Virus record (IMG/VR): IMGVR_UViG_3300037882_001607
Location: 1-35,170 of that record
Length of the DNA: 35,170 nt
Direction: 5' to 3' (one strand)
DNA from: a virus
The notes under the pieces were generated by a model. It was not told the origin of the DNA. It did no database searches and saw only the letters and a list, made by a program, of their open reading frames with translations. Below are positions 5,416 through 25,103 of this stretch, one piece after another (positions within the stretch are counted from its first letter, which is position 1; every line of letters begins with the position of its first letter). The position numbers and the translations under genes are program-made.

Positions 5416-7338
5416 TTAGGCTGCTTGCTTGGCTTGCACCAGGGTGATGTGGTCAACCAGAGCGGCGCAGATGTGCGCAAAGTCGGCTTCGTGGTACAAA
5501 ACTGCTGCCCCGGCATGTCCAGCGGCATCAAAGCCAAGCGATTTCAGGAAGTTGGCGGTGACGGTAAAGCCCAAGCGTTCCGCAATCTGACCCAGGCGCA
5601 GGCTAGGCGCGGCGACTGGTGCCGCAGCAGGGCGCGGCGCGAACATCTGGACAACTGCTGGCGCCGGCGGCATGGGTTTCAGTGCGGCCTTTTCAATGCT
5701 CAAGTCAGCAATACCGGACGATGAAATGAAGTCAACAACACCATCCAGTTCTTTCAGCAACTCAGGCGGCATTGAATCTTCGTCGCGGGCCGCTGCCAGC
5801 GCCTGTTTGGCATCAGTTGCTGCCTCGCTCAATTCACCCACTGCGCGGTCGATCTGGTTGCTTCGGATGGCGTTTTCTTGAGCCTGCTTTGCAGCAAGGG
5901 CAGCGGCTTCGCGCTGTTCACGGGCGATGGTTTCGCGGGCTTCAAGTTCAGCCTTGGCTTGTTCCTCGGCCCGGATGCGCTGGCGTGTGGCTTCTTCGCG
6001 GGCCGCTTCGGCTTTCTTGTGTGTGTCAATCCGGCTGGATACCAGCAATTTCAGGTCATCTGGCGCTTTGGCAACAATCTGAGCCTTGTCAGCAAACAGG
6101 AACTCATAACCAGCGCCATCGGTCTTGATGCAGTCCAGATTCATGCGGATGGCCCGTGCGGCAGCGTCAGCGGAAATCTTGGCCCCGGCGAGCATGGTGT
6201 CCAGCGCGTCCTGCATACTGGCAAAGTTGCGTTTGTTTTTGAGTGCTTCGGCAAACGCTGGAGCGGCAACATTCAAACGGATTGGCTGAATTTCACTTTC
6301 AAGCGATGCAATGTGGAATGTGTACTTTTCGCGTGTTGCTGCCACCATTGCGGCCTTCTTGGCCTTGTCTTCGCGCTCCACATCCTTTTCCAGCTGCAGG
6401 GCTGTCAGGCGCATGTCTTCACACCATGCGTCAATCATCCGGGCAGCTTCGCCTACGGTCACGGTTTCAGCCAGCATTGCGGCTTTGGCCTGCTTGGCTG
6501 ATTCGATGTTTTCGCGCAGCTGCTTTGCCGCCAGTTTTGCGTCTGAAAAGTCTTGGTCAGTCACCAGCGCAATTGAGCGGATGGCCTGCAGTTTTTCAGA
6601 CAGCTTCAGGCCGTAGTCCTGCATGTTGTCTGCTGTGATTTCGCCCTTGGCCCGGATGAACAAAGCGGGCAGGTCGGTCGTGGCGCGTGGCTTGGGCATT
6701 TCAACGGCAGCAGGGCAATCCACGTATTCGGCCAGGTCGCGCTCAAACTGAATCCAGCCCTGACGGATACGCTCGGCCAGGTCTTCATCATTGAAATACC
6801 AGCAGTGGTGCTCTTCAACCAGTGTGTCGCCATCCCACTTTGAAGCCATGAACAAGACACGCTCCGCACCAGACACCATGATCTGCTGCTGCATCTGGAT
6901 CCGGTACATCAGTGGCAATTCATTGCCTGCGCGGTTTGCCGTTTTTCCGATGTCTGCCCGGTCGTAGTTACCAAACCAGGCGCGCAGCGCTTCATTCAAG
7001 CTTTTATGCTCAAAGGCGATGGTTTCATCCATCGTCAGGCCGTCAAAGCTGGCAGATAGCAGGCCGTTTGAGCCAACTACGGGATAAAGGTCTTCGCCAA
7101 TGATGGCCTCAGCCAGCGGGCGGGCCAGGGCTTCAAAGCGGTGGCCATCATCAAAGCGGCGCTGGGTCTGTGCGTCAACGTCCGGCGTGATGCCAGTCTT
7201 GACGCGGCGCAGCAGTTCGGCGCGGGTCATGTAGGCCGACTCGCCCATCATGGCAGGCGCATCGCTGGCGTTTCGGTGTGCGGCCCGGTATGCGTGCCAT
7301 TCTGGAATTCCTTGTTGTAGGTCGTGGTGAACTTTCAT
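5416..7338 (-). CDS. YqaJ/lambda-type exonuclease with long C-terminal coiled-coil extension
   Basis: 640 residues from ATG 7338, chosen for its AAGGAG ribosome site and ATGA overlap with the upstream gene. The first ~220 residues are a YqaJ/lambda exonuclease domain: GIPEWHAYR at 10-18, NASDAPAMMG at 23-32, a conserved Glu69, SASFDGL with Asp99, and the catalytic E-H-K triplet at 110-112. Such enzymes degrade one strand at double-strand ends to feed a single-strand annealing protein. After residue ~220 comes a long helical, Ala/Glu/Lys-rich region (around EKDVEREDKAKKAAMVAATR and AREEATRQRIRAEEQAKAEL), then a Pro-rich linker and a C-terminal domain with a LGQIAERLGFTVTANFLKSLG helix pair. 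The fusion makes it much longer than the ~220-residue core enzyme. It is paired with the candidate annealase upstream. Confidence 0.8.
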   Translation of the reverse strand: MKVHHDLQQGIPEWHAYRAAHRNASDAPAMMGESAYMTRAELLRRVKTGITPDVDAQTQRRFDDGHRFEALARPLAEAIIGEDLYPVVGSNGLLSASFDGLTMDETIAFEHKSLNEALRAWFGNYDRADIGKTANRAGNELPLMYRIQMQQQIMVSGAERVLFMASKWDGDTLVEEHHCWYFNDEDLAERIRQGWIQFERDLAEYVDCPAAVEMPKPRATTDLPALFIRAKGEITADNMQDYGLKLSEKLQAIRSIALVTDQDFSDAKLAAKQLRENIESAKQAKAAMLAETVTVGEAARMIDAWCEDMRLTALQLEKDVEREDKAKKAAMVAATREKYTFHIASLESEIQPIRLNVAAPAFAEALKNKRNFASMQDALDTMLAGAKISADAAARAIRMNLDCIKTDGAGYEFLFADKAQIVAKAPDDLKLLVSSRIDTHKKAEAAREEATRQRIRAEEQAKAELEARETIAREQREAAALAAKQAQENAIRSNQIDRAVGELSEAATDAKQALAAARDEDSMPPELLKELDGVVDFISSSGIADLSIEKAALKPMPPAPAVVQMFAPRPAAAPVAAPSLRLGQIAERLGFTVTANFLKSLGFDAAGHAGAAVLYHEADFAHICAALVDHITLVQAKQAA

Positions 7339-8327
7339 GCTGTTTCTCCTTCGGTTATGACGGCCCAAGATGCGATTTCGACCTTCTGGTCGTCTGTCAA
7401 AATCTCTCTGGTTTGGATGGTTGAAATCAAATCGTTGACGGACTTACCGCCTTCGATAGTCTTTTTCCAGCCGGCCTTTTTCTTTTCAAAAGACTCGGTG
7501 GTGCAGGTTTCTGGTGTTTTGGGTTTGGTGGCTGCAGGCGCGGCACCCTCTTCAAATTCAAACCAGTCGGCTGGGGAACTCATTTCGTCGCGCAAGCTGG
7601 CATAAACGCGCTTGAGCATCACCACCTGGGCAGGCTGGATGGCTTCAAGCCTGCGCTGAATGCGCTTTTCAATCTGTTCTCGGGTCACGCCAAACTCGGA
7701 AAAGGCTTCAACCATCTTGACCATGGCTGCTGGGCTGGTATCGGCTTTTGTGCGCAGGGTTACTTCAGCCTGATTCATGGCTGTATCAATCACATCGCCG
7801 GGGATCATGGCCAGGATGCATGCGCGGACGCGGCGCTGGGCTTGGTTTGCAATCAGCTCGTAAATGTCGCGTTCATCTTTGAGCTTGTAACCGCCGCCTT
7901 TGGTGTCGCGCCAGTGTTTAACAATGAACTGCAGACGCTTGAAGCAGCGGTTTTCAAGGTCTGCGCAATATGCTTCAACTTCTGAAAATGGGGTGCCGTT
8001 GTCGTCAGAGCCTCGGGCCAGTTCGCGCCAGCCTTGTTCCATGTTCCCCCATTGTTGGGCGATGGCCTCGGCTGCGCGGATGCTGGGGCCACAGATATCA
8101 GTGCCGCCACGGGAAAATTGGTACTGCGACTTTTCAGCCAAACCGGGACGGGTGAAGGCGTTCAGTATCTTGTCCATGCTGGCGACCACGTTGCGCGGGA
8201 ACTGTTGGGCCATCATGTATTTGGCTTGCGTCTCAGCAAGTTCGCGGGTCTGCGCTTGGCGCGCCCCACTGGTTTCGGCCAAGGCTGTAGAGCGCTGTCC
8301 CATTGGGTTTTCGACAAGGTTATTCAT
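7335..8327 (-). CDS. putative phage single-strand annealing recombinase
   Basis: 330 residues with GGAG seven bases before ATG 8327. The core contains GGTDICGPSIRAAEAIAQQW, GYKLKDERDIYELIANQAQR and RRVRACILAMIPGDVID. I know this set of motifs from phage proteins encoded next to YqaJ-type exonucleases and regarded as functional counterparts of RecT/Red-beta. The C-terminus is a Lys/Ala-rich linker and a small helical domain. The stop overlaps the exonuclease start, as expected for a two-component recombination system. Direct RecT homology cannot be shown from the sequence alone. Confidence 0.6.
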   Translation of the reverse strand: MNNLVENPMGQRSTALAETSGARQAQTRELAETQAKYMMAQQFPRNVVASMDKILNAFTRPGLAEKSQYQFSRGGTDICGPSIRAAEAIAQQWGNMEQGWRELARGSDDNGTPFSEVEAYCADLENRCFKRLQFIVKHWRDTKGGGYKLKDERDIYELIANQAQRRVRACILAMIPGDVIDTAMNQAEVTLRTKADTSPAAMVKMVEAFSEFGVTREQIEKRIQRRLEAIQPAQVVMLKRVYASLRDEMSSPADWFEFEEGAAPAATKPKTPETCTTESFEKKKAGWKKTIEGGKSVNDLISTIQTREILTDDQKVEIASWAVITEGETA

Positions 8328-11266: not shown

Positions 11267-11443
11267 ATGAACTGCGCCCGCTGCAATCGCCCCATGACCA
11301 AGCCTTACGCAGTGGTCGGCAAATACAGCTTTGGGCCTGTCTGCTTTACCAAGATGTTTGGCAAAAAGGAACAGGTCAAGACTGGCAAGCGGGCTGTGCG
11401 GGTAGAGATAAATCAATTGGAATTGGAATTGGAAACCGTATGA
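11267..11443 (+). CDS. small zinc-ribbon protein (DUF6011-like)
   Basis: 58 residues. Cys3-x2-Cys6 at the start (NCARCNRPM) and GPVC at 23-26 match the small zinc-ribbon type CxxCgrpL ... GpvCxxK. The start is 4 bases after the previous stop, with no strong ribosome site. Longer upstream frames read through the neighbour and are rejected. Its stop overlaps the methyltransferase start. Confidence 0.6.
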   Translation: MNCARCNRPMTKPYAVVGKYSFGPVCFTKMFGKKEQVKTGKRAVRVEINQLELELETV

Positions 11444-12120
11444 CCTACGTTCAAAAAGTTGTGATTGGGGATGCGACGCTTCTACTTGGCGATTGCATGG
11501 ACATCTTGCCTACGCTGGGTCAGGTTGATGCGGTGATTACAGATCCGCCCTATGGGCTGTCAGAAAAACTTCTTGGCGGTAGAACTAGCGATATTTTTAA
11601 GGACGCTCTACACGATTGGGATGCTACCGCCCCGGCTGAATTGCTCGACCAAGCGCTGCGACTTTCTGATAAAGCCATTGTTTGGGGTGGCAATTACTTC
11701 TCTTTGCCGCCGTCGCGTTGCTGGCTGACATGGATTAAGCGTGATGCCGTGCGAACTATGGCCGGGTGTGAGCTTGCCTGGACAAACTTCGATGCCAATG
11801 CAAAGTTTTTCGACTGGACGATTGCGGCTACGAACGCCGAACGGGTTGCACATCCAACACAAAAGCCGCTGGCGCTTATGCGTTGGTGTATTGAGCAGGC
11901 CGGTAAACCCGAAACCATCCAAGACATTCTCGACCCGTTTATGGGAAGCGGCACGACTGGAGTCGCAGCCGTCCAAATGGGCCGCAAGTTCACCGGAATA
12001 GAACGCGAACCCAAATACTTCGCCATCGCCTGCCAACGCATAGAGCAAGCCCACGCCCAAGGCCAACTATTCGCACCAGTGCAGGCCAAGCCTGAACAGT
12101 TGAGTTTGGAGGCCGCATGA
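11440..12120 (+). CDS. DNA methyltransferase, beta class (N6-adenine or N4-cytosine)
   Basis: 226 residues. The catalytic DPPY is at 35-38 and the AdoMet-binding DPFMGSGTT at 165-173, so the order is motif IV before motif I, as in beta-class enzymes. HPTQKP at 138-143 is the usual motif before the AdoMet pocket. The target-recognition part between them is short. There is no restriction nuclease beside it, so it is an orphan, most likely modifying phage DNA against host restriction. Target sequence cannot be read from the protein. Confidence 0.85.
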   Translation: MTYVQKVVIGDATLLLGDCMDILPTLGQVDAVITDPPYGLSEKLLGGRTSDIFKDALHDWDATAPAELLDQALRLSDKAIVWGGNYFSLPPSRCWLTWIKRDAVRTMAGCELAWTNFDANAKFFDWTIAATNAERVAHPTQKPLALMRWCIEQAGKPETIQDILDPFMGSGTTGVAAVQMGRKFTGIEREPKYFAIACQRIEQAHAQGQLFAPVQAKPEQLSLEAA

Positions 12121-14940: not shown

Positions 14941-15185
14941 CATGCCAATCATGCCAAGCATCAAAAGAAACAAACGGCTTATGGACAACTTACGACACCC
15001 TGCGGTGCATCTATTGCACGGCCAGGCTGATAAAGCAGATTGGAACTTACCGGGTGAGCAAAGACGAAATTCATGCACGGCAGCTTGCAGTTTTGCGGGA
15101 TGCAGTCGCTACAGGGCAGAGCGCGAAGGAAATCAGGCGGCTGGTGAAGTTGGACGGCGCGCCACTCAAGGAGGCAAGTAAATGA
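14937..15185 (+). CDS. small zinc-finger-like protein
   Basis: 82 residues. CQSCQ at the start and CIYC at 24-27 give a four-Cys site. The C-terminal half (DEIHARQLAVLRDAVATGQS) is a helical region. Joined by overlaps on both sides, between the HNH-like gene and the second methyltransferase. Function unknown. Confidence 0.6.
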   Translation: MTCQSCQASKETNGLWTTYDTLRCIYCTARLIKQIGTYRVSKDEIHARQLAVLRDAVATGQSAKEIRRLVKLDGAPLKEASK

Positions 15186-16234
15186 CCGACTATTTGAACA
15201 AATGCCACTTTGGTGACGTGCGCGATGTGCTGCGTCAAATGATTGCTAATGGCGTGAAGGTGCAAACCATCGTCACCAGCCCGCCATATTGGGGCCTGCG
15301 CAGCTACCTGCCCGCTGACCACATAGATAAGGCCCGCGAGATTGGTAGCGAGCCTACCCTGCGCGAGTTCCTTGACACGATGGTGGGCGTGTTTGACCTG
15401 TGCCGCCAGGTGCTGTCCGATGACGGCACGATGTGGGTCAATATGGGAGACAGCTACGCGGCAAACCGTGGAATTCAACCCAACCCCACAAACACACGAA
15501 ACAAAACTGGGCATATTGGTGATCAAAAAGTTCCCGTAGGACTGAAGGCAAAAGACCTTGTGGGCCAGCCATGGCGTTTGGCTTTTGCGCTGCAGGATGC
15601 CGGTTGGTACCTTCGCCAAGACATCATCTGGGCCAAGCCAAACCCTATGCCGGAAAGCGTGCGCGACCGCTGCACCAAGGCCCATGAATACATCTTCCTG
15701 CTGTCGAAATCAGCGACCTATTACTTTGACCAGGGCGCGATTCTGGAACCTGTCAGCGCCAGCACACATGCCAGGTTGTCGCAGGACGTTCAGGCTCAGA
15801 TAGGTTCTGCCCGCGCCAATGGTGGCGGCAAAACAAACGACAACATGAAAGCGGTGGGGCGTGGCGTTGGCTGGGGCCACGGTACCGATGCCGAACAGCG
15901 TAATCGCGGCAGGGTAAAAAATAACGCCAGCTTTAATGAAGCCATGGCCATCATGCCCACAGAACGCAATCGCCGAAGCGTCTGGACGGTACCGACCGAA
16001 AGCTACAAGGGTGCCCACTTCGCCACGTTCCCCCGCGCCCTGATCGAGCCCTGCATTCTTGCTGGCGCGCCTGCTGGCGGCGTAGTGCTGGACATCTTCA
16101 TGGGCAGCGGCACCACCGCCCAAGTCGCCGAGCAGCTTGGCCGCAAGTGGATCGGCATCGACATTGACATCCGGAACAAGGCCTTGCAGGACGAACGCCT
16201 GCGCCAGCCTTCACTTGATCTGGAGGCAGCATGA
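15182..16234 (+). CDS. DNA methyltransferase, beta class with SPPY motif
   Basis: 350 residues. SPPYWGLR at 33-40 is the catalytic motif IV and DIFMGSGTT at 304-312 the AdoMet motif, again motif IV first. The SPPYWG form is common among N4-cytosine enzymes, although N6-adenine members exist. The region 185-260 is Gly/Asn/Arg-rich and probably contains target recognition. No cognate nuclease is next to it. The first methyltransferase is much shorter and only motif-related, so two specificities are likely protected. Confidence 0.85.
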   Translation: MTDYLNKCHFGDVRDVLRQMIANGVKVQTIVTSPPYWGLRSYLPADHIDKAREIGSEPTLREFLDTMVGVFDLCRQVLSDDGTMWVNMGDSYAANRGIQPNPTNTRNKTGHIGDQKVPVGLKAKDLVGQPWRLAFALQDAGWYLRQDIIWAKPNPMPESVRDRCTKAHEYIFLLSKSATYYFDQGAILEPVSASTHARLSQDVQAQIGSARANGGGKTNDNMKAVGRGVGWGHGTDAEQRNRGRVKNNASFNEAMAIMPTERNRRSVWTVPTESYKGAHFATFPRALIEPCILAGAPAGGVVLDIFMGSGTTAQVAEQLGRKWIGIDIDIRNKALQDERLRQPSLDLEAA

Positions 16235-17834: not shown

Positions 17835-18032
17835 TCAAAGGCCTATCGGTGTGCGGATTTTGAAAAGCGCCCACAGGCCGGGGTGCAGCTTGCGCTCTCC
17901 AGCCTCATACGCCTGCCAAGCGCGAGTACTGGCATGTATCAAGCCTGCCGCCTGTGTCTGGGTCAGGCCAGCAGCAGCCCTGCGCTCTTTTATTGCGTCG
18001 GGTGGGGGAGATTTGAATTTTGGTTCAGGCAT
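17835..18032 (-). CDS. small XRE-type helix-turn-helix regulator (Aca-like candidate)
   Basis: 65 residues. DAIKERRAAAGLTQTQAAGLIHASTRAWQAYEAGERKLHPGLWALF is a compact helix-turn-helix domain with almost no other sequence, of the type that ends in a W-x-x-Y/W-E-x-G-x-R-x-(M/L) helix. Aca proteins of anti-CRISPR operons are of this size and kind. It is the second gene of a minus-strand pair inserted among plus-strand genes and overlaps the 82-residue gene by 8 bases. It is likely to bind the operator in its own promoter (inverted repeat 18310-18347). No match to a named Aca is claimed. Confidence 0.7.
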   Translation of the reverse strand: MPEPKFKSPPPDAIKERRAAAGLTQTQAAGLIHASTRAWQAYEAGERKLHPGLWALFKIRTPIGL

Positions 18033-18273
18033 TCAGAGTCTCAATGTCATAGCCATCGCTGGTTATGGTCACAACTTCAGTGCGTCCGGTAGTGCTGTCC
18101 CAGCTTTTGATTTCAAAGCACATGCCATTGCCGTTGTCGAAAGATTCTTCAGCTTCTGTGGCCCAAGCACTCAGCATTGCGGCATTGAAATGGTCTTGGC
18201 CCAGTTTATGGGAGAGGCCCAAAGCGTCAGAAATTTGTTTGATTCCGTTAGCGTTGATATGAGCAGTTTGCAT
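18025..18273 (-). CDS. small acidic protein, candidate anti-defence (anti-CRISPR-like) protein
   Basis: 82 residues, strongly acidic. It contains a helical N-terminal half (IKQISDALGLSHKLGQDHFN, AMLSAWATEAEESFD) and a beta-like C-terminal half (MCFEIKSWDS, TEVVTITSDGYDIE). I know no family. GGGGA precedes ATG 18273 at suitable distance. It is the first gene of a two-gene minus-strand unit with a helix-turn-helix gene second, has its own promoter, and lies in otherwise plus-strand DNA: the arrangement of acr-aca operons. An anti-CRISPR function is a hypothesis only; other moron roles are possible. Confidence 0.65.
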   Translation of the reverse strand: MQTAHINANGIKQISDALGLSHKLGQDHFNAAMLSAWATEAEESFDNGNGMCFEIKSWDSTTGRTEVVTITSDGYDIETLNA

Positions 18274-18304
18274 GTCGTTTCCCCGGTTAGTTGTGACAGC
18301 GATT

Positions 18305-18385
18305 TTGCTGCCATGACTGTATTATGTCCCACAATGTGCGTCATGGCCAGCGGAAAATCAATTATTTGATAGGTATAAACCCTAT
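18305..18385 (-). promoter_or_regulatory. promoter/operator of the first inverted cassette
   Basis: On the minus strand a -10 box CATAAT lies at 18326-18321 and the first gene starts at 18273. A perfect 8-bp inverted repeat, GCCATGAC (18310-18317) and GTCATGGC (18340-18347), flanks the -10/spacer region and is a good operator candidate. Blocks 18305-18327 and 18364-18385 are nearly identical to 25016-25038 and 25074-25095 in front of the second cassette (20/23 and 19/22 identical). The -35 element is not obvious, so an activator could be involved. Confidence 0.6.
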
Positions 18386-18755
18386 GTCTAAGCAAATCAC
18401 AAGACCAACCCGCCGCCAGCTGTACGGCCTGCTATTCGGCCCAGTGCTGGGTGACATCAGCGAACAGGTGCTGATAACGCAGGACGACGGCAGCACAACC
18501 ACGCATGAGCCGAAAGTTTGGCATGAATGGTTCAAAGGCCGGATTCTCAAAGGCAAGAGCACCACAAAGCTGCCAGACGACAAATTGCACCTCTACATCC
18601 TCGAAGTTCAGGCCTTTGCCGCGACTGAGATGGGGGTGACTTTTACCGAGAAACTGGCCCCAAAAGAGCCGCCAAAGGTCCTAGCTGGTCCACCCACTTC
18701 AGCCGTTGATTTCATTGAAGAAAACCATGGAAACATGGCCCAAACATGCAGTTAG
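18384..18755 (+). CDS. NinB-like recombination protein (tentative)
   Basis: 123 residues from ATG 18384. RPTRRQLYGLLFGPVLG, EPKVWHEWFKGRILKGKSTT and LHLYILEVQAFAATEMGVTF follow the NinB outline (Arg-rich start, VW-x-E-x-FK, STTKL, and helix with A-x-E-x-GV). NinB proteins bind single-stranded DNA and help recombination. The C-terminus is unusual (a Pro-rich stretch). No ribosome site is seen; TATAAACCCT stands right before ATG. Its TAG stop is inside the terminator hairpin. Confidence 0.5.
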   Translation: MSKQITRPTRRQLYGLLFGPVLGDISEQVLITQDDGSTTTHEPKVWHEWFKGRILKGKSTTKLPDDKLHLYILEVQAFAATEMGVTFTEKLAPKEPPKVLAGPPTSAVDFIEENHGNMAQTCS

Positions 18756-18783
18756 GTCCAGCCAATAGGTCCTAGCTTTTTTT
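18753..18783 (+). terminator. probable intrinsic terminator of the early rightward operon
   Basis: TAGGTCC (18753-18759) pairs with GGTCCTA (18768-18774) with one internal T-T mismatch and an 8-base loop, followed by GC and seven T (18777-18783). It overlaps the stop codon of the NinB-like gene and separates early from late genes. The ten bases GGTCCTAGCT also occur at 18677-18686, so a short duplication helped build it. Confidence 0.55.
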
Positions 18784-18899
18784 ACCCCGATACGCAGCGG
18801 CCAGCGTGTGATGGCGCATAACTGAAAGTCAAAAGTATTAGGAAAAACTCAAAAAATCCGCATCATGTTCTAGACACACCTAGAAATTAGGAGTAACGG
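18784..18899. other. short intergenic region before the late module
   Basis: 116 bases, AT-rich towards the end, with no gene. AGGAG at 18889-18893 serves the GTG start at 18900. I could not find a convincing -35/-10 pair, although late transcription is expected to begin near here. Confidence 0.5.
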
Positions 18900-19358
18900 G
18901 TGCAGCAATTGGATTTATTCGGCGGGACTCAATGCGAGTTTGCCAAGCGCAAAAGGCAAAGAACGTACAGGCGGCGCATATGCCCCACATCTGTACAGCT
19001 TTGCTTTGACCTAAAAATCATCAGCGATGACGACGAGCAAGAAGACCGCCTAGTAACAGATCCAATCATTCACCGAATACTCAGCGCAGTAGAAGCCGAG
19101 CCCATTAAGACCAGCGCGCCGCGTTCCATTTTTGACACATCAAACGGTTTTTTACAAATCAAGATGCCACAACAAGGAAAGCGGGCTTTGACCAAAATCG
19201 AAATCATCGAAGGTGTCACCCGGTCAACGCGCATCCTTCCGCAAGAAACACTTGAATGGAAAGAGAAAGAAGCTCAGCGCCGCGCGCGCCAGATCGTCCC
19301 ACGCCCCCCAAGGTCTGCAAAGACACTCGGGCGAAAGCTGAAAGAGTGGGTGAGCTGA
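18900..19358 (+). CDS. basic protein at the early/late boundary (unknown; late-regulator position)
   Basis: 152 residues from GTG 18900, with AGGAG seven bases upstream deciding the start. Basic patches (KRKRQRTYRRR, EKEAQRRARQ, GRKLKEWVS) alternate with an acidic segment (SDDDEQEDR). No family known. It follows an intrinsic terminator and precedes the terminase, where lambdoid phages keep the Q antiterminator, and its charge would suit nucleic-acid binding. That is position-based inference. Confidence 0.65.
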   Translation: MQQLDLFGGTQCEFAKRKRQRTYRRRICPTSVQLCFDLKIISDDDEQEDRLVTDPIIHRILSAVEAEPIKTSAPRSIFDTSNGFLQIKMPQQGKRALTKIEIIEGVTRSTRILPQETLEWKEKEAQRRARQIVPRPPRSAKTLGRKLKEWVS

Positions 19359-19537
19359 TGCCTCTCCCTATCCTTGAAACAACACCCGAAGTTATCTGCA
19401 AGTACAGCGCAGACCGGCACGGGCAAATGCCGGGGTTCTCCAGAGTATGCGCACCTCGATCTGTACGGCGCGAACGGTCAGGCCCAGCGCGCAAGCGTGA
19501 ATCCGATGGGTGCTTGGGTTTAAAGGGTAAGACATGA
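19358..19537 (+). CDS. small basic protein of unknown function
   Basis: 59 residues. ATG 19358 overlaps the previous TGA (TGATG) and its own TGA overlaps ATG of the terminase small subunit (ATGA). The C-terminal half is very basic (RSVRRERSGPARKRE). The translation chain supports it, but composition alone would not. Confidence 0.45.
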   Translation: MPLPILETTPEVICKYSADRHGQMPGFSRVCAPRSVRRERSGPARKRESDGCLGLKGKT

Positions 19538-20094
19538 ACAACAAATCAAAACTTACCGATAAACAGTGGGCAGAGATAGAAAAACGGCTGCTTGAGGGTG
19601 AAGCAGCAAGGGCGCTTGCAAAAGAGTTCGGAGTGAGCGAGGCGGCAATCAGAAAGCGCAAAGGTGCGCAGGTAAAACAGATAAAATATGTTGCAAATCA
19701 AATAGTTGCAACTGAGCTGGCTTTTAGAGAGTTGCCGATTGGTACGCAGATTAGTACGCAGCGGTACGCAGCAAAATTGCTTTGCATCAGCGATGACATG
19801 CTGGAGGGCTCAGTCCATGCGGCTTCCAACTTCCGAAGGCTCAGCGCCATCGCAAGCACAGAGCTCGGAAAGGTGGATGTGGTTGACCCAAACCAATCGG
19901 TGAATGTCCTCAAGGGCATCGCATTCATCACGAACCTTGCCAATGAGGCCGCAAAGACTCCGGTGAACCTGATTGCAGCCAACAAGGAAATCATCAAGGA
20001 GTCGAGCAAGCATGAGGGTGAAAACATGCCAAATTCACCAATTACCCGGCAAGAACTAGCCGAATCAATCCGCAGTGTCCGCGACCAGTTTTAA
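19534..20094 (+). CDS. terS: terminase small subunit
   Basis: 186 residues. The N-terminal helix-turn-helix (LTDKQWAEIEKRLLEGEAAR ... LAKEFGVSEAAIRKRKG) is the DNA-binding domain of many phage small terminases, followed by a helical oligomerisation region (ELAFRELPIGTQ ... SNFRRLSAIASTELGK). It binds the packaging site and hands DNA to the large subunit, whose gene overlaps it by 20 bases. Confidence 0.75.
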   Translation: MNNKSKLTDKQWAEIEKRLLEGEAARALAKEFGVSEAAIRKRKGAQVKQIKYVANQIVATELAFRELPIGTQISTQRYAAKLLCISDDMLEGSVHAASNFRRLSAIASTELGKVDVVDPNQSVNVLKGIAFITNLANEAAKTPVNLIAANKEIIKESSKHEGENMPNSPITRQELAESIRSVRDQF

Positions 20095-21469
20095 GCCCGC
20101 CGACCATCTGGCGGCGATTGGATGGGCACGGGAAGACCTGTACGACTTCAGCCGCTTGATGTTCTTGAGGCGTAAGGGCTTCAAGTGGCAGCGCGCCAGG
20201 CAGCATCAAATCATCTGTGATGCCCTGATGCGGGTCTATCGGGGTGAGTGCAAACGCTTAATCATCAACGTCCCGCCCAGGTACAGCAAAACCGAGCTGG
20301 CCGTGGTCAACTTCATCGCATGGTGCTTTGGCAGGGTGCCAGACTGTGAATTTATCCACGCCAGCTATTCAGGAACGCTGGCAATCAACAACAGCGCGGC
20401 GGTGCGTGGTGTGCTGCAGCATGAGGCCTACGCCGAGATATTCCCCGACACGCAGTTAGCCAGCGATGCCAAGGCGCATTGGAAGACCACGGCAGGCGGG
20501 GTGATGTACGCCACGGGCACCGGAGGCACCATAACTGGGTTCGGTGCGGGCAAGCATCGGCCAGGTTTTGGGGGCGCAATCGTAATTGATGACCCGTTAA
20601 AGGCTGACGAAGCAAAATCCGAGGTGATGCGCAAGAACGTCATTGACTGGTTCCAGAACACACTGGAAAGCCGCAAGAACAGCCCAGACACGCCAATCAT
20701 CGTCATCATGCAGCGCCTGCACTCCGATGACTTGTCAGGCTGGCTGCTGGGTGACACACCCGGAAAACCAGGCGGCAACGGTGAATTGTGGGAGCATGTC
20801 TGTATCCCTGTCTGGAATGACGACGGAACCCCGCTATGGCCTGAAAAGCACGACGAAGAAACGCTCAGGGCCATGGAAAAGGCTTCACCCTACGTTTTCG
20901 CAGGCCAATACAGGCAAAGCCCAGCGCCACCAGACGGCGGGGTTATCAAGCCCGGAATGCTTCAAATTGTCGATGCCATCCCCGCTAACGTGGCCGAATG
21001 GTGCAGGGGTTGGGACTTGGGCGCATCGCTGAACGGTGATTACACGGCAGGCGCAAAGATTGGCAGGCTGACCGATGGCCGCTACATCATTGCAAACGTG
21101 GTCAGGGATAGGCTGGAATCACACCAGCGTGACGCACTGATAAAAAACACAGCAACGGCAGACCGCATCAAACAGAGCTTGCCACAAGATCCAGGGCAGG
21201 CCGGGAAGTCGCAAGTTTTGGCGTTTGCAAAGCTGCTGGCTGGGTTGCCCGTTCACTTCAGCCCGGAAAGTGGCGACAAGGTGACCAGGGCTGACCCGCT
21301 GGCCAGTCAAATCAATGTCGGCAACGTCCTGATGCTTCGCGGCGGCTGGAATGAGGAATTCAAGGCCGAATGCGCCCTGTTCCCTAACGGCAAATACGAT
21401 GACCAGGTTGATGCGGCAGCACGGGCATTCAATAAACTGCTCACACCGCAGGCGGGCATATTCATCTAA
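20075..21469 (+). CDS. terL: terminase large subunit
   Basis: 464 residues from GTG 20075. ATPase: Walker A-like PPRYSKT at 67-73 and Walker B AIVIDDP at 168-174. Nuclease: GWDLGAS at 312-318, GRYIIANVVRDR, and KYDDQVDA at 440-447 with the metal-binding aspartates. This is the RNase H-type nuclease layout of TerL; it powers DNA packaging into the prohead and cuts the concatemer. Downstream there is an unusual non-coding region rather than the portal gene directly. Confidence 0.9.
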   Translation: MSATSFKPADHLAAIGWAREDLYDFSRLMFLRRKGFKWQRARQHQIICDALMRVYRGECKRLIINVPPRYSKTELAVVNFIAWCFGRVPDCEFIHASYSGTLAINNSAAVRGVLQHEAYAEIFPDTQLASDAKAHWKTTAGGVMYATGTGGTITGFGAGKHRPGFGGAIVIDDPLKADEAKSEVMRKNVIDWFQNTLESRKNSPDTPIIVIMQRLHSDDLSGWLLGDTPGKPGGNGELWEHVCIPVWNDDGTPLWPEKHDEETLRAMEKASPYVFAGQYRQSPAPPDGGVIKPGMLQIVDAIPANVAEWCRGWDLGASLNGDYTAGAKIGRLTDGRYIIANVVRDRLESHQRDALIKNTATADRIKQSLPQDPGQAGKSQVLAFAKLLAGLPVHFSPESGDKVTRADPLASQINVGNVLMLRGGWNEEFKAECALFPNGKYDDQVDAAARAFNKLLTPQAGIFI

Positions 21470-21491
21470 TTGCGCGCCTCCGTAACATTGT

Positions 21492-21520
21492 TTGCATTGG
21501 GACGCTCGCACCGTTACAAT
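21492..21520 (+). promoter_or_regulatory. possible promoter inside the non-coding region
   Basis: TTGCAT (21492-21497), 17-bp spacer and TACAAT (21515-21520, five of six). Transcription would begin near 21527, just before the left arm of the terminator-like repeat, predicting an RNA of about 80 bases. The spacer is exactly where the left arm of the 13-bp inverted repeat lies. Confidence 0.35.
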
Positions 21521-21606
21521 GAAACCTTGAAGCCCTTGAGCTTCTGCTTTCTGCCTTTAATGGCGACACGGTGCGAGCGTGGAAAGTGGAGCCTCAAGGG
21601 CTTTTT
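21502..21606 (+). ncRNA. candidate structured RNA: two interlocked perfect inverted repeats (pseudoknot topology) plus T-run
   Basis: Arm A (ACGCTCGCACCGT, 21502-21514) pairs perfectly with A' (21568-21580); arm B (AAGCCCTTGAG, 21530-21540) pairs perfectly with B' (21593-21603). The order is A-B-A'-B', so each helix encloses one strand of the other. B' runs into TTTTT, giving the form of a terminator. The two loops are almost equal (53 and 52 bases). Such long perfect helices do not arise by chance. It could be a phage non-coding RNA, an attenuator, or A/A' could be a protein-binding site in DNA with B/B' a terminator. Confidence 0.6.
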
Positions 21607-21833
21607 GCTTTTCGTCGTCAGGGCGCGTACCCGTGCAGCTAATGGGCCTATGTCGTGGCCGCACCCAAGAAAGCGATGGCGATTAACTGACAACCCCGTC
21701 GCCAGGGCGTTTCACAGCGACCCTAAAAACCAGCAATGTAGACTGACAAAGCGTTTGGCCCACGTAATCGGGCGCTGGATAGTTTGAATGTGACGTTAAG
21801 CGAGCATGAGGCCTGCAAGGGCTGCATGAACTT

Positions 21834-21869
21834 GGTTCCATAAGACACTGCAAGTCAGTGTCAGGAACC
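21834..21869 (+). other. stable stem-loop upstream of portal gene
   Basis: GGTTCC (21834-21839) pairs with GGAACC (21864-21869) outside, and GACACTG (21844-21850) with CAGTGTC (21856-21862) inside, closing a 5-base loop. An asymmetric internal loop (4 against 1 base) separates them. It ends 42 bases before the portal ATG, which lacks a ribosome site, so it may protect or control the portal message. Confidence 0.6.
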
Positions 21870-21893
21870 TCGGGGTTGTCCTATGGGTCATCG

Positions 21894-21903
21894 TCCCTAG
21901 CAT
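21894..21903 (+). repeat. TCCCTAGCAT start-site motif (copy 1, portal)
   Basis: TCCCTAGCAT stands 8 bases before ATG of the portal gene, in place of a ribosome site. The same or nearly the same ten bases recur before four other late genes. TTGTCC at 21876-21881 lies 16 bp before TAGCAT, so this copy could be a promoter. Confidence 0.55.
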
Positions 21904-21911
21904 GAACGGCT

Positions 21912-23255
21912 ATGGCCCAAACAATCACCGTAAATACTACTGATATTGAGATCATCAGAGCGCGTCAGCTTGCCTATGGCGGGTCACTGGATGCAAAGCG
22001 GCCCGATTCGTGGCAGGTGTACGGCTACCCAGACGATGTGACGTTTGAGCGGATGCTGACAGCCTACGAGCGGGGCGGTGCAGCACATGGCGCAGTTCAC
22101 CGGATGCTTGACGGCTGCTGGCAGGACAACCCCCGCATCAAGACCGAAGGCAGCGAAGACGAAACGCCGTGGGAGAAAAACACCCTCAAAGTGCTGAAAT
22201 CTGTCCGTGGCTTTGCAAAGCTGCGCGACCTTGACCGCAGGAACATGATTGGCCGCTATGCCGGGTTGATTTTGCGCGTTGCTGACAGCTTGGCATTGCG
22301 TGAGCCGATGGTCAGGGCTCAGAAGCTGGTGGACATGGTGCCCGTTTATGAAAACCAGCTTAGGGTAACGGCTTGGAACGTTGATGAAACATCAGAGGAC
22401 TACGGCAAGCCGACCATGTACCAGTACCGCACCCGGCCAGTGCAGAACCAGGGTGACACGCAGGGTAGGCCGGAAACATGGATTGATGTTCACCCCTCAC
22501 GCATCATCATCATGGCCGAGGGCAGTGTGGGTGATGATATGTTTGATGGTGTGCCGCTGCTCAAAGCTGGTTTTAATGCGCTGGTTGACATCGAAAAGGT
22601 GTCGGGCGGCTCTGCTGAATCGTTCCTGAAAAACAGCGCCCGGACAATCACTATCCAGTATGACAAGGACGCATCACCGTCAGCAATTGGCGCAGACGGC
22701 GAAAAAGTCAGCATCAAGCAGGCGCATGAATCCCAAGTAAAGGCGCTGAATAGCAACCAGGACGGCGCAATCGTCACGCAGGGCGCAACAGCTGGAGTGC
22801 TGCAAACAACCGTCAGCGACCCAGGCCCATCGTTTATGGTGCCTGCCAATATCTTTAGCGCTTCGGTGCAACTGCCGTTCACGATTCTTTTCGGCCAGCA
22901 GACCGGGCGACTGGCCAGCGATCAGGACAAGAAAGACGCTGATGCCCGCTACAAATCCCGCCAGACCAATGAAATCACGCCAGTAATCGAGGAAACCATC
23001 AGGAGGTTGCAGGGTGTCGGAGTCATCGAGCCAGGCGCGTTTGAAGTCGAATGGCGCGACATCTCTGCACCGTCTGACCTTGACAAGCTGAACAATCTCA
23101 AATTGATGACCGGGGCCATGGCTGATGTCTTCAAAAACGGCATTACCGACCTGTTCACGGTCGATGAGTTGCGTAAATCGGTGGACTATGCCCCCGTGGA
23201 CGAATCGCAGTTGCCCGACATGCCCGCAGAAGGCGACCCGCTGGACAATGCGTAG
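21912..23255 (+). CDS. portal protein (DUF1073-like)
   Basis: 447 residues. RPDSWQVYGYPDDVTFERML, a long helical middle, IIIMAEGSVGDDMFDGVPLL, and ANIFSASVQLPFTILFGQQTGRLASD fit the DUF1073-type portal family. The dodecameric portal forms the DNA channel at one head vertex and binds the terminase. It comes after terL and before the head morphogenesis gene, as expected. The preceding ATG at 21902 gives only a 13-codon frame. It ends in TAG. Confidence 0.85.
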   Translation: MAQTITVNTTDIEIIRARQLAYGGSLDAKRPDSWQVYGYPDDVTFERMLTAYERGGAAHGAVHRMLDGCWQDNPRIKTEGSEDETPWEKNTLKVLKSVRGFAKLRDLDRRNMIGRYAGLILRVADSLALREPMVRAQKLVDMVPVYENQLRVTAWNVDETSEDYGKPTMYQYRTRPVQNQGDTQGRPETWIDVHPSRIIIMAEGSVGDDMFDGVPLLKAGFNALVDIEKVSGGSAESFLKNSARTITIQYDKDASPSAIGADGEKVSIKQAHESQVKALNSNQDGAIVTQGATAGVLQTTVSDPGPSFMVPANIFSASVQLPFTILFGQQTGRLASDQDKKDADARYKSRQTNEITPVIEETIRRLQGVGVIEPGAFEVEWRDISAPSDLDKLNNLKLMTGAMADVFKNGITDLFTVDELRKSVDYAPVDESQLPDMPAEGDPLDNA

Positions 23256-24180
23256 TCCCATCATCCCCGGCACCCCACAAGACCGCACAGGCTCAGCCGG
23301 ACTACTACGCAAGGCCATAGCAGACATCCGGCGCAGGTACGCGGGACTACAGGCCGAGGTACTGGCAACATTTGACGCAATCCAGGTTTACAGCCTGAAC
23401 GATGCCGCCGACCGCGTAGCTTATGGCATGACCCCGGAGCAGATGCAGGCGCTCAGCGATGCACTGGCCGCAACCTTTGACCGCTGGCTTATACCGTCAC
23501 TCAGCGCCAAAGACCCGGCAAACGTTTTCTGGTGGTCTGGTTATGTCGAAGATGCCGCAACGCTTGGGGCTGCGCAGTCAGTCGCAAACCTGAGCAACTT
23601 GTCAGCAGCTTATGGCGCAAGCAGGGCGCTTGAAACGGTCATCTACAGCACACCGTACAAAGTCCGGCTGGCGATGGCTCAGATCAAGAGTTATGACCAC
23701 TGGGTAGGACTTGCAGCACAGCAAAAGTCAGACCTCAGCGCCATCATTGGCCGTGCAGTGGTTGACGGCAAGAATCCGCGCACAGTCAAGACTGAAATCA
23801 TGGATCAGCTCAAAGTGAGCAAGTCCAGGGCAGAGGGCTACGCGCAAACCGACATCACCGACACGCTCAGGCAGGCGAAGATGGCCGAGGCTGACGATTC
23901 AGCAGAGGCTTTGAACCTGAACATCGTCATGCTGTGGACATCTGCGCTGATACCGACCACCAGGCCAACCCATGCGGCAAGAAACGGCAAGGTTTACACG
24001 ACGCAGGAGGTCAAGGCGTTTTATGCGAAGGATGGCAATCGATATAGGTGCCACTGCGGGCTAACCCAGGCGCTACTGGATAAGGACGGCAAGTTGCTGC
24101 TGTCAGACAAGGCCAAGGCCCGGTTCAAGGCTGAAACTGACGCTTGGGAAAAGGCCCAGGCCGACAAAAAAGCGTCGTAA
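23248..24180 (+). CDS. phage head morphogenesis protein (Mu gpF/SPP1 gp7-like)
   Basis: 310 residues from ATG 23248 (8-base overlap with portal). The C-terminal third has the family pattern: RAEGYAQTDITDTLRQAK, MLWTSALIPTTRPTHAARNG, YTTQEVKAFYA and YRCHCGLTQALLD with a Cys-x-Cys near the end. These minor head proteins are bound to the portal and are packaged in few copies. Its stop is inside a 20-bp palindrome shared with the convergent cassette. Confidence 0.8.
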   Translation: MRSPIIPGTPQDRTGSAGLLRKAIADIRRRYAGLQAEVLATFDAIQVYSLNDAADRVAYGMTPEQMQALSDALAATFDRWLIPSLSAKDPANVFWWSGYVEDAATLGAAQSVANLSNLSAAYGASRALETVIYSTPYKVRLAMAQIKSYDHWVGLAAQQKSDLSAIIGRAVVDGKNPRTVKTEIMDQLKVSKSRAEGYAQTDITDTLRQAKMAEADDSAEALNLNIVMLWTSALIPTTRPTHAARNGKVYTTQEVKAFYAKDGNRYRCHCGLTQALLDKDGKLLLSDKAKARFKAETDAWEKAQADKKAS

Positions 24181-24194
24181 ATACGTATTTACGA
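24175..24194. terminator. 20-bp perfect palindrome at convergent gene ends (bidirectional terminator candidate)
   Basis: The arm TCGTAAATAC at 24175-24184 is followed at once by its exact reverse complement, 24185-24194. It contains the TAA stops of both convergent genes (24178-24180 plus, 24191-24189 minus). TTTT follows on the plus strand, and on the minus strand GCTTTTTTG follows after CG. The stem is AT-rich and there is no loop in the DNA, so the RNA would make a shorter hairpin. Confidence 0.5.
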
Positions 24195-24353
24195 TTTTCC
24201 GGGCCTACTGGGTTTCTTGGTGGCAGGCTTCACCACTGGCGGCGGCGCTGAATCCTTGGGCTTGGGGTTTTCAGCGATGTAACGGCCCATGATTGACAGC
24301 GAGTGTGTTTCGAGGTCAAGCAAGCGGGGTGAGATCAGGGCTGGTTTTTTCAC
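24189..24353 (-). CDS. small protein with Lys/Pro-rich tail (uncertain)
   Basis: 54 residues from GTG 24353 (34 residues if ATG 24290 is used). It overlaps the end of the KorA-like gene in another frame. The first half is ordinary (ALISPRLLDLETHSLSIMGR), the second is KPKDSAPPPVVKPATKKPSR, like the basic tails of histone-like proteins. No clear ribosome site; support is the protein-like composition and its fitting exactly to the terminator palindrome. Confidence 0.35.
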   Translation of the reverse strand: MKKPALISPRLLDLETHSLSIMGRYIAENPKPKDSAPPPVVKPATKKPSRPGKS

Positions 24354-24561
24354 ACATGCAGTTTACAACCTTGCGCGCCTGCTCAAAACCATCCGAATAG
24401 CGTTTCACCGCATTCCACACGCCTTGATGCGTCAATCCGGTGGCGGCGACGGCTTCGGCATTGGTCTTGCCTTCAACCAGCACCAGGCGGGCGGCTTCTT
24501 TGGCTGGCCCGCCACGGGAAACGATCATCTTGGCCAGCTCTTGGAATTGGGATTCAGTCAC
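24316..24561 (-). CDS. KorA/TrfB-type helix-turn-helix repressor
   Basis: 81 residues. MTESQFQELAKMI is very like the start of KorA, and AARLVLVEGKTNAEAVAATGLTHQGVWNAVKRY is the same helix-turn-helix region, in which plasmid RP4 KorA recognises a palindrome with core TTTAGC. The KorA dimerisation domain is absent. It is downstream of the tiny ORFs in the second inverted cassette and overlaps the 68-residue gene by ATGA. TTTAGC occurs at 25045-25050 in the cassette promoter, so it probably represses its own operon, as Aca proteins do. Confidence 0.75.
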   Translation of the reverse strand: MTESQFQELAKMIVSRGGPAKEAARLVLVEGKTNAEAVAATGLTHQGVWNAVKRYSDGFEQARKVVNCMCEKTSPDLTPLA

Positions 24562-24764
24562 AAGATTTGATAAGCAGCTGTGAAGGATGCTTGGCAGTTA
24601 AAACGCTCTGAGTCTGCAGAATTGGCTTTTTTGATATAGACAGCACCAGAGTCAACTTCTCTAACCGAAATTTCACCCATAGTGCAATCAATCCGGCCAT
24701 TCACGTTGTTCAGCGCGCACATGGCGTCAGAAACAGCTTTTGCTTGGTGTTTGTTCAAAATCAT
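24558..24764 (-). CDS. small protein, candidate anti-defence protein
   Basis: 68 residues from ATG 24764, chosen because AAAGGA stands 8 bases before it (the longer start at 24788 has none). It has a helical first third (NKHQAKAVSDAMCALNNVN) and a beta-like remainder (IDCTMGEISVREVDSGAVYI). No family known. It lies immediately upstream of the KorA-like repressor, as an acr gene lies before aca. Confidence 0.6.
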   Translation of the reverse strand: MILNKHQAKAVSDAMCALNNVNGRIDCTMGEISVREVDSGAVYIKKANSADSERFNCQASFTAAYQIL

Positions 24765-24839
24765 GACGTTTTCCTTTGTTACGTGCAAAACCGCACTCCA
24801 AAGCCGCGAGGGCTTCGGGCTGGGGTTTTGGTAAATTTC

Positions 24840-24989
24840 TTAATTAGCAATTGCGTAAAAAACCATAAACTGGAACAGCAATGCATCAGAGTTTTTGATG
24901 ATGGCCCATTTTTTTGGGCTATTGCTCCAGCGAACTGCGAAATTTCCACTTTCCAGTTTTTTGTACTCAAGGACTTTTGGTGCTGCCAT
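24840..24989 (-). CDS. small basic protein, first gene of the second inverted cassette
   Basis: 49 residues from ATG 24989, with GGAG at 25000-24997 before it; a longer frame to 25088 would run through the promoter. The sequence (AAPKVLEYKKLESGNFAVRW, then KKWAIIKNSDALLFQFMVFY) has beta-strand character. It is unrelated to the 82-residue protein that follows the homologous promoter in cassette one. Function unknown; anti-defence is a hypothesis. Confidence 0.6.
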   Translation of the reverse strand: MAAPKVLEYKKLESGNFAVRWSNSPKKWAIIKNSDALLFQFMVFYAIAN

Positions 24990-25015
24990 TTTGAATCTCC
25001 GGTTAATACAGCATC

Positions 25016-25095
25016 TTGCTGCGATGACTCTATTATATACATGTTTTAGCGTGTATGTGTAGCTTTCTGATTTATTTGCTAGGTGCAAACCCTAT
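25016..25095 (-). promoter_or_regulatory. promoter/operator of the second inverted cassette
   Basis: The minus strand has a perfect TATAAT at 25037-25032. Upstream of it (higher coordinates) TTTAGC at 25045-25050, read on the plus strand, equals the core of a KorA operator half-site, and ATACA (25037-25041) with TGTAT (25052-25056) form a short inverted repeat. The blocks 25016-25038 and 25074-25095 are shared with the first cassette. No good -35 is visible, as in cassette one. Confidence 0.6.
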
Positions 25096-25103
25096 AGGGT
25101 TTG
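25086..25103. repeat. 18-bp perfect palindrome CAAACCCTATAGGGTTTG
   Basis: It lies at the outer border of the second cassette, overlapping the shared block (AAACCCTAT), upstream of the protease gene. The equivalent place in cassette one has the left half only. It could bind a dimeric regulator of the divergent genes or mark a recombination point. Confidence 0.5.

Follow-up and report, generated by a model that had tools for sequence, protein, structure and literature searches.

The lack of any common sequence makes Acr genes difficult to find, and most searches for them use an Aca gene as bait. For acrIC6/acrIC7, one association with aca4 and one with aca10 have been reported (PMC7913775). 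In archaeal viruses (SIRV2 and others), unrelated accessory genes share a conserved regulatory sequence around a strong promoter, and this sequence is suitable as a probe (PMC11065993). Frpo elements are single-stranded DNA promoters that fold into hairpins (PMC11541004), intrastrand pairing of the -10, -35 and UP regions forming the promoter elements.

Here we analysed IMGVR_UViG_3300037882_001607, positions 1-35,170 (35,170 nucleotides, hereafter the window), in which two cassettes, both on the minus strand, stand behind related promoters. The two are probably acr-aca-type accessory operons of a tailed phage, each in its own cargo spot and served by one modular promoter family to which the cargo is joined at the ATG.

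Two related promoters in one phage genome

Cassette 1 stands behind promoter copy A and cassette 2 behind copy B, with the following features.

Cassette 1
17835..18032, minus strand: 65-aa Aca10-type HTH regulator (PDB 7XI5, E=1e-16; HTH_31, 3e-7)
18025..18273, minus strand: 82-aa first gene, candidate anti-defence protein, without family match
18274..18385, minus strand: promoter/5'UTR module, copy A (77/117 columns versus copy B, stopping at the ATG)
18294..18313, minus strand: 5'UTR hairpin TGGCAGC-N6-GCTGTCA (7-bp stem, z=-2.3)
18321..18326, minus strand: predicted -10 box CATAAT, opposite TATAAT of copy B
18369..18385, minus strand: distal 17-bp inverted repeat ATAGGGTTTATACCTAT, then CAAATAA (21/24 versus copy B including the AAATAA tail)

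Cassette 2
24189..24353, minus strand: 54-aa last gene; copy in sibling locus L004 identical
24316..24561, minus strand: 81-aa KorA/Aca4-type regulator (PF16509 KORA, 4e-11; TrfB/KorA structures, 1e-4)
24558..24764, minus strand: 68-aa gene; L003 relative of 34% identity, L004 copy identical
24765..24804 (ends approximate), minus strand: conserved linker GGAGTGCGGTTTTGCACGTAACAAAGGAAAACGTC preceding the 68-aa gene, with counterparts in L004 and L003
24840..24989, minus strand: 49-aa first gene, not in L004; phrog_14601 (unknown function), 7e-4
24990..25095, minus strand: promoter/5'UTR module, copy B; aligns with copy A and resembles the promoters of the L122 type
25008..25022, minus strand: 5'UTR hairpin GCAGCA-AGA-TGCTGT (6-bp stem, z=-1.1)
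25032..25037, minus strand: predicted -10 box TATAAT, opposite CATAAT of copy A
25079..25095, minus strand: distal inverted repeat ATAGGGTTTGCACCTAG, counterpart of the copy A repeat
25086..25103, no strand: perfect palindrome of 18 bp, CAAACCCTATAGGGTTTG, which overlaps the copy B distal repeat

The first-pass annotation had proposed that the upstream DNA of the two cassettes aligns over about 110 bases, and this was reproduced: 18385-18274 (-) against 25095-24990 (-) gave 117 columns with 77 identities, or 77/101 (76%) without gaps. The two blocks that it had singled out matched exactly as claimed, the inner one (18305-18327 versus 25016-25038) at 20/23 and the outer one (18364-18385 versus 25074-25095) at 19/22, with 36 bases between the blocks in copy A and 35 in copy B. 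The same is true of the -10 boxes, CATAAT (18321-18326) lying opposite TATAAT (25032-25037), and of the CCGGGG and CCGGAG that precede the two ATGs (18273 and 24989). The local score of the pair was 70, against maxima of 34 among about 4,900 random pieces of the window and 38 among 2,000 shuffles; nothing else in the window scored near it, and no third promoter copy was found there. The likeness breaks off at each ATG and, at its other end, upstream of the inverted repeat, the flank scores (21 and 14) being background. As had also been claimed, the genes behind the two promoters are unrelated by BLASTP and the cassette regulators belong to two different families; the flanking DNA of the two cassettes is likewise unrelated.

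The promoter family in other loci

In related phages, promoters of the same plan precede five first genes that are unrelated to one another, encoding proteins of 82, 60, 47 and 89 aa and RadC; in some of these loci, with the 82-aa gene or RadC in first place, a KorA-type regulator comes next. Over the aligned stretch the relatives' copies are 85-100% identical, and the genes that they precede are unrelated; one contig has two such copies. The search for varied small ORFs followed by HTH genes behind the promoter, which had been put forward as a check, therefore succeeds at the family level. It had also been suggested that the promoter could serve as a probe. This worked for the family, where probing found L143 (radC and a KorA-type gene), a locus overlooked by protein searches, but the narrow window pattern finds L003 only. 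The exact window-type promoter is found here and in L003 alone; narrow patterns gave 0 matches and 1 match (L003) in viral_contigs, and with a looser pattern for the 5'UTR 32 stretches matched there, no recognisable promoter copy being among them. No credible match to the window promoter was found in INPHARED and PLSDB (annotated phages and plasmids), nor any window-type copy in cultured phages. Scanning of genome_contigs gave three matches, and a single shared clostridial sequence accounts for two; none was module-like and we read them as chance.

L003 carries 63 bases identical to copy B, palindrome included, in an unrelated context. The palindrome CAAACCCTATAGGGTTTG forms the left edge of the stretch common to the window and L003, and the match runs to the contig edge. 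The sibling locus L004 is without the promoter and first gene only; the remainder is kept, and so is the palindrome. The linker GGAGTGCGGTTTTGCACGTAACAAAGGAAAACGTC is 95% identical in L004 and 92% identical in L003, and in each it precedes a relative of the 68-aa gene. Cassette 2 occupies spot 2, between Mu-F-like and DUF2213 genes, and the content of this spot varies in relatives. The five unrelated first genes and the state of L004 support that part of the earlier proposal which saw a mobile promoter module with varied genes.

One alternative would be simple paralogy, in which the promoter of a cassette was duplicated long ago in this lineage and the copies stayed while the genes behind them changed, the promoter itself not being exchangeable. 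That A and B are just 76% identical, and that the window holds no third copy, would fit such a history. However, the B-type promoter stands in another context in L003, the same locus lacks it in L004, and the highly similar copies of the relatives precede unrelated genes, even within one contig, and we consider paralogy quite unlikely.

Parts of the promoter

The blocks differ in kind, a correction to the first-pass annotation. Copies A and B agree in the outer block and again from the -10 box to the Shine-Dalgarno sequence, and the 30 bases immediately 5' of the -10 box are not common to them (17/35, p=0.08). Tested by segment, the distal repeat was common to all compared promoters (p<=5e-4) and the 5'UTR was common to A and B (p<5e-4). 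The spacer was not shared between A and B (p=0.08) and was weakly shared between B and L122 (p=0.02), both of KorA type. The spacer 5' of the -10 box thus seems to follow regulator type, a pattern seen across two regulator classes (p=0.02). Imperfect repeats in the core-promoter spacer are centred at the same place in B and L122, with a weaker repeat in A. A hairpin equivalent in place to that of copy A is present in copy B, in the L122 type and in L130, the folding having covered the 5'UTR downstream of the -10 box only.

The 17-bp distal repeat has the pattern TAGGG-N5-[A/C]CCTA, and L122-type promoters carry a distal repeat of the same plan as copy A. Its distance to the -10 box is 31, 41-42 or 51 bases; these 10-base steps may be a mere reflection of a 10-bp tandem unit. 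The repeat was also found at an immunity region and before the terminase gene TerS, and so occurs outside cargo as well; in this respect the proposal of a cargo module was not supported. Its presence at these two places suggests that it is a putative operator of a phage-wide regulator.

Perhaps, then, the blocks are only selected binding sites for a phage-wide repressor or activator and for RNA polymerase, a shared regulon in which no DNA moves with the promoter. The repeat at the immunity region and before TerS speaks for this, as does the keeping of the repeat-to--10 spacing in 10-base steps. Against it, the likeness includes bases without an obvious binding role (TAACCGG, AGTCAT), and the identity with L003 extends to poorly conserved positions. 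A regulon alone is in our opinion improbable.

Regulators and first genes

The cassette 1 regulator matched 7XI5 (Aca10 of P. citronellolis) over 56 residues (E=1e-16), with the Aca10 DNA-contact residues Q22, Q37 and R44, and also R34, aligned and identical. Judged by its sequence, it is an Aca10 homologue. The best match of the known Aca10 operator ATACGCTCATTGAGCGTAT in copy A, located in the spacer, was 11/19 and at chance level (p=0.27). The cassette 2 regulator, at 81 aa (Aca4 is expected to have 60-85 aa), matched PF16509 KORA (4e-11) and HTH_23 (0.005), and shares 45% identity with the regulator that follows the 82-aa gene of L122. By these matches it is of KorA type, the Pfam family of Aca4, and it is likened to Aca4 by domain. 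An Aca10 homologue in one cassette and a member of the Aca4 Pfam family in the other give both cassettes an acr-aca anatomy.

Relatives of the 82-aa gene were found in L122-L130, in Alfacinha1 (gp21) and in a Citrobacter plasmid. In L122, L123 and L125-L129 the gene that follows encodes a regulator of KorA type, in the window one of Aca10 type and in Alfacinha1 an HTH_31 protein; in the Citrobacter plasmid, a weak ribbon-helix-helix match lies one gene beyond. A model of the 82-aa protein (pLDDT 69, helix-helix-strand-strand-strand) had no significant PDB match. We regard it as an unnamed family and a candidate anti-defence gene. Its identification as AcrIC6 (WP_080050315.1; AcrIC7 is WP_003294373.1) is not favoured, because the family has a single plasmid match and AcrIC6 is reported to be frequent in Salmonella (PMC7913775).

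Alternatively, these operons with their autoregulators could be ordinary morons, or modules resembling toxin-antitoxin systems, unconnected to defence or counter-defence. Regulators of KorA and Xre type are commonly found outside acr loci, and KorA-type and Aca10-type proteins also occur on plasmids, adjoining other genes; the Aca10-type protein of cassette 1 weakly matches the MqsA antitoxin, and the first genes of both cassettes had no known Acr family match in NCBIfam or PADLOC. However, the closest solved relative of the cassette 1 regulator is Aca10, the second regulator has the Pfam type of Aca4, and the 82-aa gene, in the manner of acr genes, is found with several regulators that are unrelated to one another. 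This alternative therefore appears unlikely.

A proposed modular promoter for exchangeable cargo

In the acr-aca-type reading that we prefer, each cassette would consist of small orphan gene(s) and a small DNA-binding autoregulator behind a promoter of four parts. The first would be the distal 17-bp inverted repeat, probably the operator of a phage-wide regulator, and the second an A-rich spacer. The third would be the core promoter, whose -35/-10 spacer probably carries an operator for the regulator encoded in the cassette and would differ according to that regulator. The fourth, with the -10 box, the 5' hairpin and the Shine-Dalgarno sequence, would end at the start codon. Cargo would be swapped at the ATG, most likely via recombination between the repeated promoters and linkers. 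Different genes joined at the ATG to a shared promoter would thus come under the control of the phage, and each Aca-like protein would keep its own repression loop. The anti-defence function of the cargo, the operator roles, the role of the hairpin and mobility by recombination are what we infer from these sequences.

More tentatively, the family might be a standard promoter chassis for counter-defence cargo, in which the distal operator answers to the phage-wide regulator and the exchangeable core carries the operator of the incoming Aca. Cargo and regulator could thus be swapped without loss of phage control.

Comparison with known systems

A promoter family that stays constant while cargo and Aca change provides an independent bait in bacterial phages, an approach already taken in archaeal viruses. 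Since at least five unrelated genes stand behind it in related viruses, candidate anti-defence genes can be sought with it, the 82-aa family being foremost among the concrete candidates. It also raises the question of phage control over foreign cargo operons that each bring their own repressor.

The cassettes resemble the acrIC7-acrIC6-aca10 locus of Pseudomonas citronellolis and the aca4 loci in having orphan gene(s) and then a 65-81-aa HTH regulator of Aca10/KORA type, and they resemble acr-aca operons in having their own promoter with inverted repeats at most 120 bases from the ATG (PMC9410906, PMC9410881, PMC7913775). Unlike those operons, they combine different regulator families with one promoter family and have a distal repeat specific to neither; their Acr activity is putative. 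As with the SIRV2-type anti-defence genes, unrelated accessory genes of one virus share regulatory sequence usable as a probe (PMC11065993), but here this occurs in a bacterial tailed phage, with a bacterial promoter, an autoregulator per operon and two copies in the genome. The recurrence of a promoter before diverse genes is also known from Frpo/ssi of plasmid anti-defence islands (PMC11541004), although the promoter described here looks like an ordinary double-stranded one with a 5'UTR hairpin. Finally, phage cargo hotspots and morons, the P2-like hotspots for example, have accessory genes that vary while their positions between core genes are fixed (PMC9122126), as in spot 2; unlike there, the cargo here shares promoter and linker sequences between spots.

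Gene layout and regulators

The 35,170-base record is of a tailed phage with TerS-like, TerL, portal (PF06381), Mu-F-like and DUF2213 genes, and its plus-strand gene order is broken by two minus-strand groups, cassettes 1 and 2.

18273-18025, minus strand: cassette 1, first gene, 82 aa
18032-17835, minus strand: cassette 1, 65-aa HTH gene, after the 82-aa gene
24989-24840, minus strand: cassette 2, 49-aa gene
24764-24558, minus strand: cassette 2, 68-aa gene
24561-24316, minus strand: cassette 2, 81-aa KorA-type gene
24353-24189, minus strand: cassette 2, 54-aa gene

Two DNA N6/N4 methylase genes (11440-12120 and 15182-16234) may offer restriction protection, and a YqaJ-type viral recombinase gene (5416-7368) is a candidate for recombination that could exchange cassettes.

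The cassette 1 regulator matched Aca10 of Pseudomonas citronellolis (PDB 7XI5, E=1e-16) and keeps residues Q22, Q37 and R44, which are important for DNA binding by Aca10 (PMC9410881). The cassette 2 regulator is of KORA type (4e-11) and resembles KorA/TrfB structures; Aca4 has been described as a KORA/HTH_23 protein of 67 aa (PMC9410906). These family-level matches assign the two regulators to the Aca10 and KORA (Aca4-like) types, with a putative role in repression. Both families also occur on plasmids, next to other genes. On Klebsiella plasmids (L149, 1997-2695; 62 Klebsiella records matched), Aca10-like HTH genes immediately follow a 148-aa hypothetical gene, another acr-aca-like pair.

A promoter shared by both cassettes

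The first-pass annotation had proposed that unrelated first genes and regulators stand behind one mobile promoter module, and its counts of 20/23 and 19/22 identities in two blocks were exact on recount. On the minus strand, copy A (18385-18274, cassette 1) and copy B (25095-24990, cassette 2) give a 117-column alignment in which 77 columns are identical, at a local score of 70 against a best of 34 among about 4,900 random window pieces and 38 in 2,000 shuffles. The similarity stops at both start codons, and its other limit lies upstream of a 17-bp inverted repeat. Beyond these limits, on the coding side (first 120 bases) and on the upstream side (120 bases), only background scores were obtained. 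No third copy was found within the window.

Read downstream, the module has the distal inverted repeat (ATAGGGTTTATACCTAT or ATAGGGTTTGCACCTAG) with CAAATAA behind it, then A/T-rich sequence, and then a core with a weak -35 (assigned by inspection only) and a -10 of CATAAT or TATAAT. Transcription probably begins a few bases ahead of a hairpin, and CCGG(G/A)GA and the ATG come last. Tested piecewise, the repeat block (21/24 identical) and the 5'UTR (33/47) are each shared at p<5e-4, against just 17/35 for the 30 bases preceding the -10 (p=0.08).

First genes and their changing partners

Family searches assigned no family to the 82-aa protein, and the sole match of the 49-aa protein was a weak one, to a phage family of unknown function. 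Relatives of the 82-aa protein were found in nine viral contigs, in Acidovorax phage Alfacinha1, MW202796, and in one Citrobacter plasmid, where the gene adjoins Tn3-family genes. The gene behind it is of Aca10 type in the window, of KorA type in L122, L123 and L125-L129, and HTH_31 in Alfacinha1; on the plasmid, a weak ribbon-helix-helix match lies one gene farther along. The KorA-type regulator of L122 is 45% identical to that of cassette 2. An orphan protein with varying DNA-binding partners is a pattern typical of acr genes; acrIC7/acrIC6 have been reported once alongside aca4 and once alongside aca10 (PMC7913775).

The same promoter before other cargo

A promoter built on this plan is found in most contigs that have the 82-aa gene (L122, L123, L125-L129): TAGGGAAAACCCCTA, an A-rich spacer, TTGCACCCG..AAAATGGGTGTATAAT and a hairpin. 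Its score against copy B was reached by 0-2 of 2,000 shuffles, and its copies are 85-100% identical across the aligned stretch. The cargo behind them is the 82-aa gene, 60-aa and 47-aa genes in one contig (L125), or an 89-aa gene (L127). When 2.9 million viral contigs were scanned for the promoter pattern, one further locus came up: L143, with the promoter, radC and then a KorA-type gene.

L125 also has a second linker, itself repeated. This intergenic linker recurs before different genes (L125 2047-2125 and 2921-3000; L127 1974-2053) and carries a GTGCG..CGCAC-type hairpin and a GGAAAA Shine-Dalgarno; the window linker at 24765-24804 is of similar plan. The L122-type core weakly resembles the terminal region of PRD1-like phages (PP412825, PP412836, PP412824; 81-88% over 32-43 bases, E 0.03-0.4), which may be chance.

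Two putative layers of control

We infer that the cassettes are under two layers of control, one phage-wide and one exerted by the cassette's own regulator. The distal repeat is common to A, B and the L122 type irrespective of regulator (p<=5e-4). Its perfect form, TAGGG-N5-CCCTA, was found in the L122 group only, in 8 distinct contexts against a null of about 1 (1.6 Mb of loci), including two sites outside cassette promoters:

L139, about 725-745: repeat TTAGGGTTTGTCCCTAT, adjacent to a Cro/CI-like HTH gene (782-976)
L144, 1258-1274: repeat TTAGGGTTTGTCCCTAT, immediately before TerS

Because the repeat ignores regulator type and recurs at these two genes, it is best explained as a putative operator of a phage-wide regulator.

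The spacer adjoining the -10 is common to B and L122, both of KorA type (p=0.02), and not to A, of Aca10 type; imperfect repeats in B and L122 are centred at the same place. On this thin evidence, the regulator of a cassette may have its operator in that spacer. The repeat lies 31, 41-42 or 51 bases from the -10, in steps of about one helical turn, which a 10-base tandem unit could also yield.

Gain and loss at the cassette sites

L004, a near relative of the window (portal 92% identical), retains the palindrome and the 68-aa, KorA-type and 54-aa genes, and is without the promoter and the 49-aa gene. In L003, from the same metagenome as L004, 63 bases equal copy B from the palindrome on, in an otherwise unrelated context; since the match extends to the contig end it may mark an assembly branch. 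Our reading is that this stretch is probably a repeat occurring in two contexts. The site of cassette 2, between the Mu-F-like and DUF2213 genes, varies in other relatives: some have nothing or only a short stretch there, others have unrelated genes, often on the minus strand. In L010 (14295-15177) it is occupied by four other small minus-strand genes, of 86, 62, 65 and 80 aa.

Comparison with known systems

Operons of acr and aca genes have been described before, as have their autorepression and the inverted repeats that their promoters carry (PMC9410906, PMC9410881). No report of one promoter family across operons with different Aca types came up in a limited search of the open literature. 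The anti-defence function of the present cassettes is a prediction; in archaeal viruses, unrelated anti-defence genes are preceded by a shared regulatory sequence (PMC11065993), and plasmid anti-defence islands have recurrent single-strand promoters (PMC11541004).
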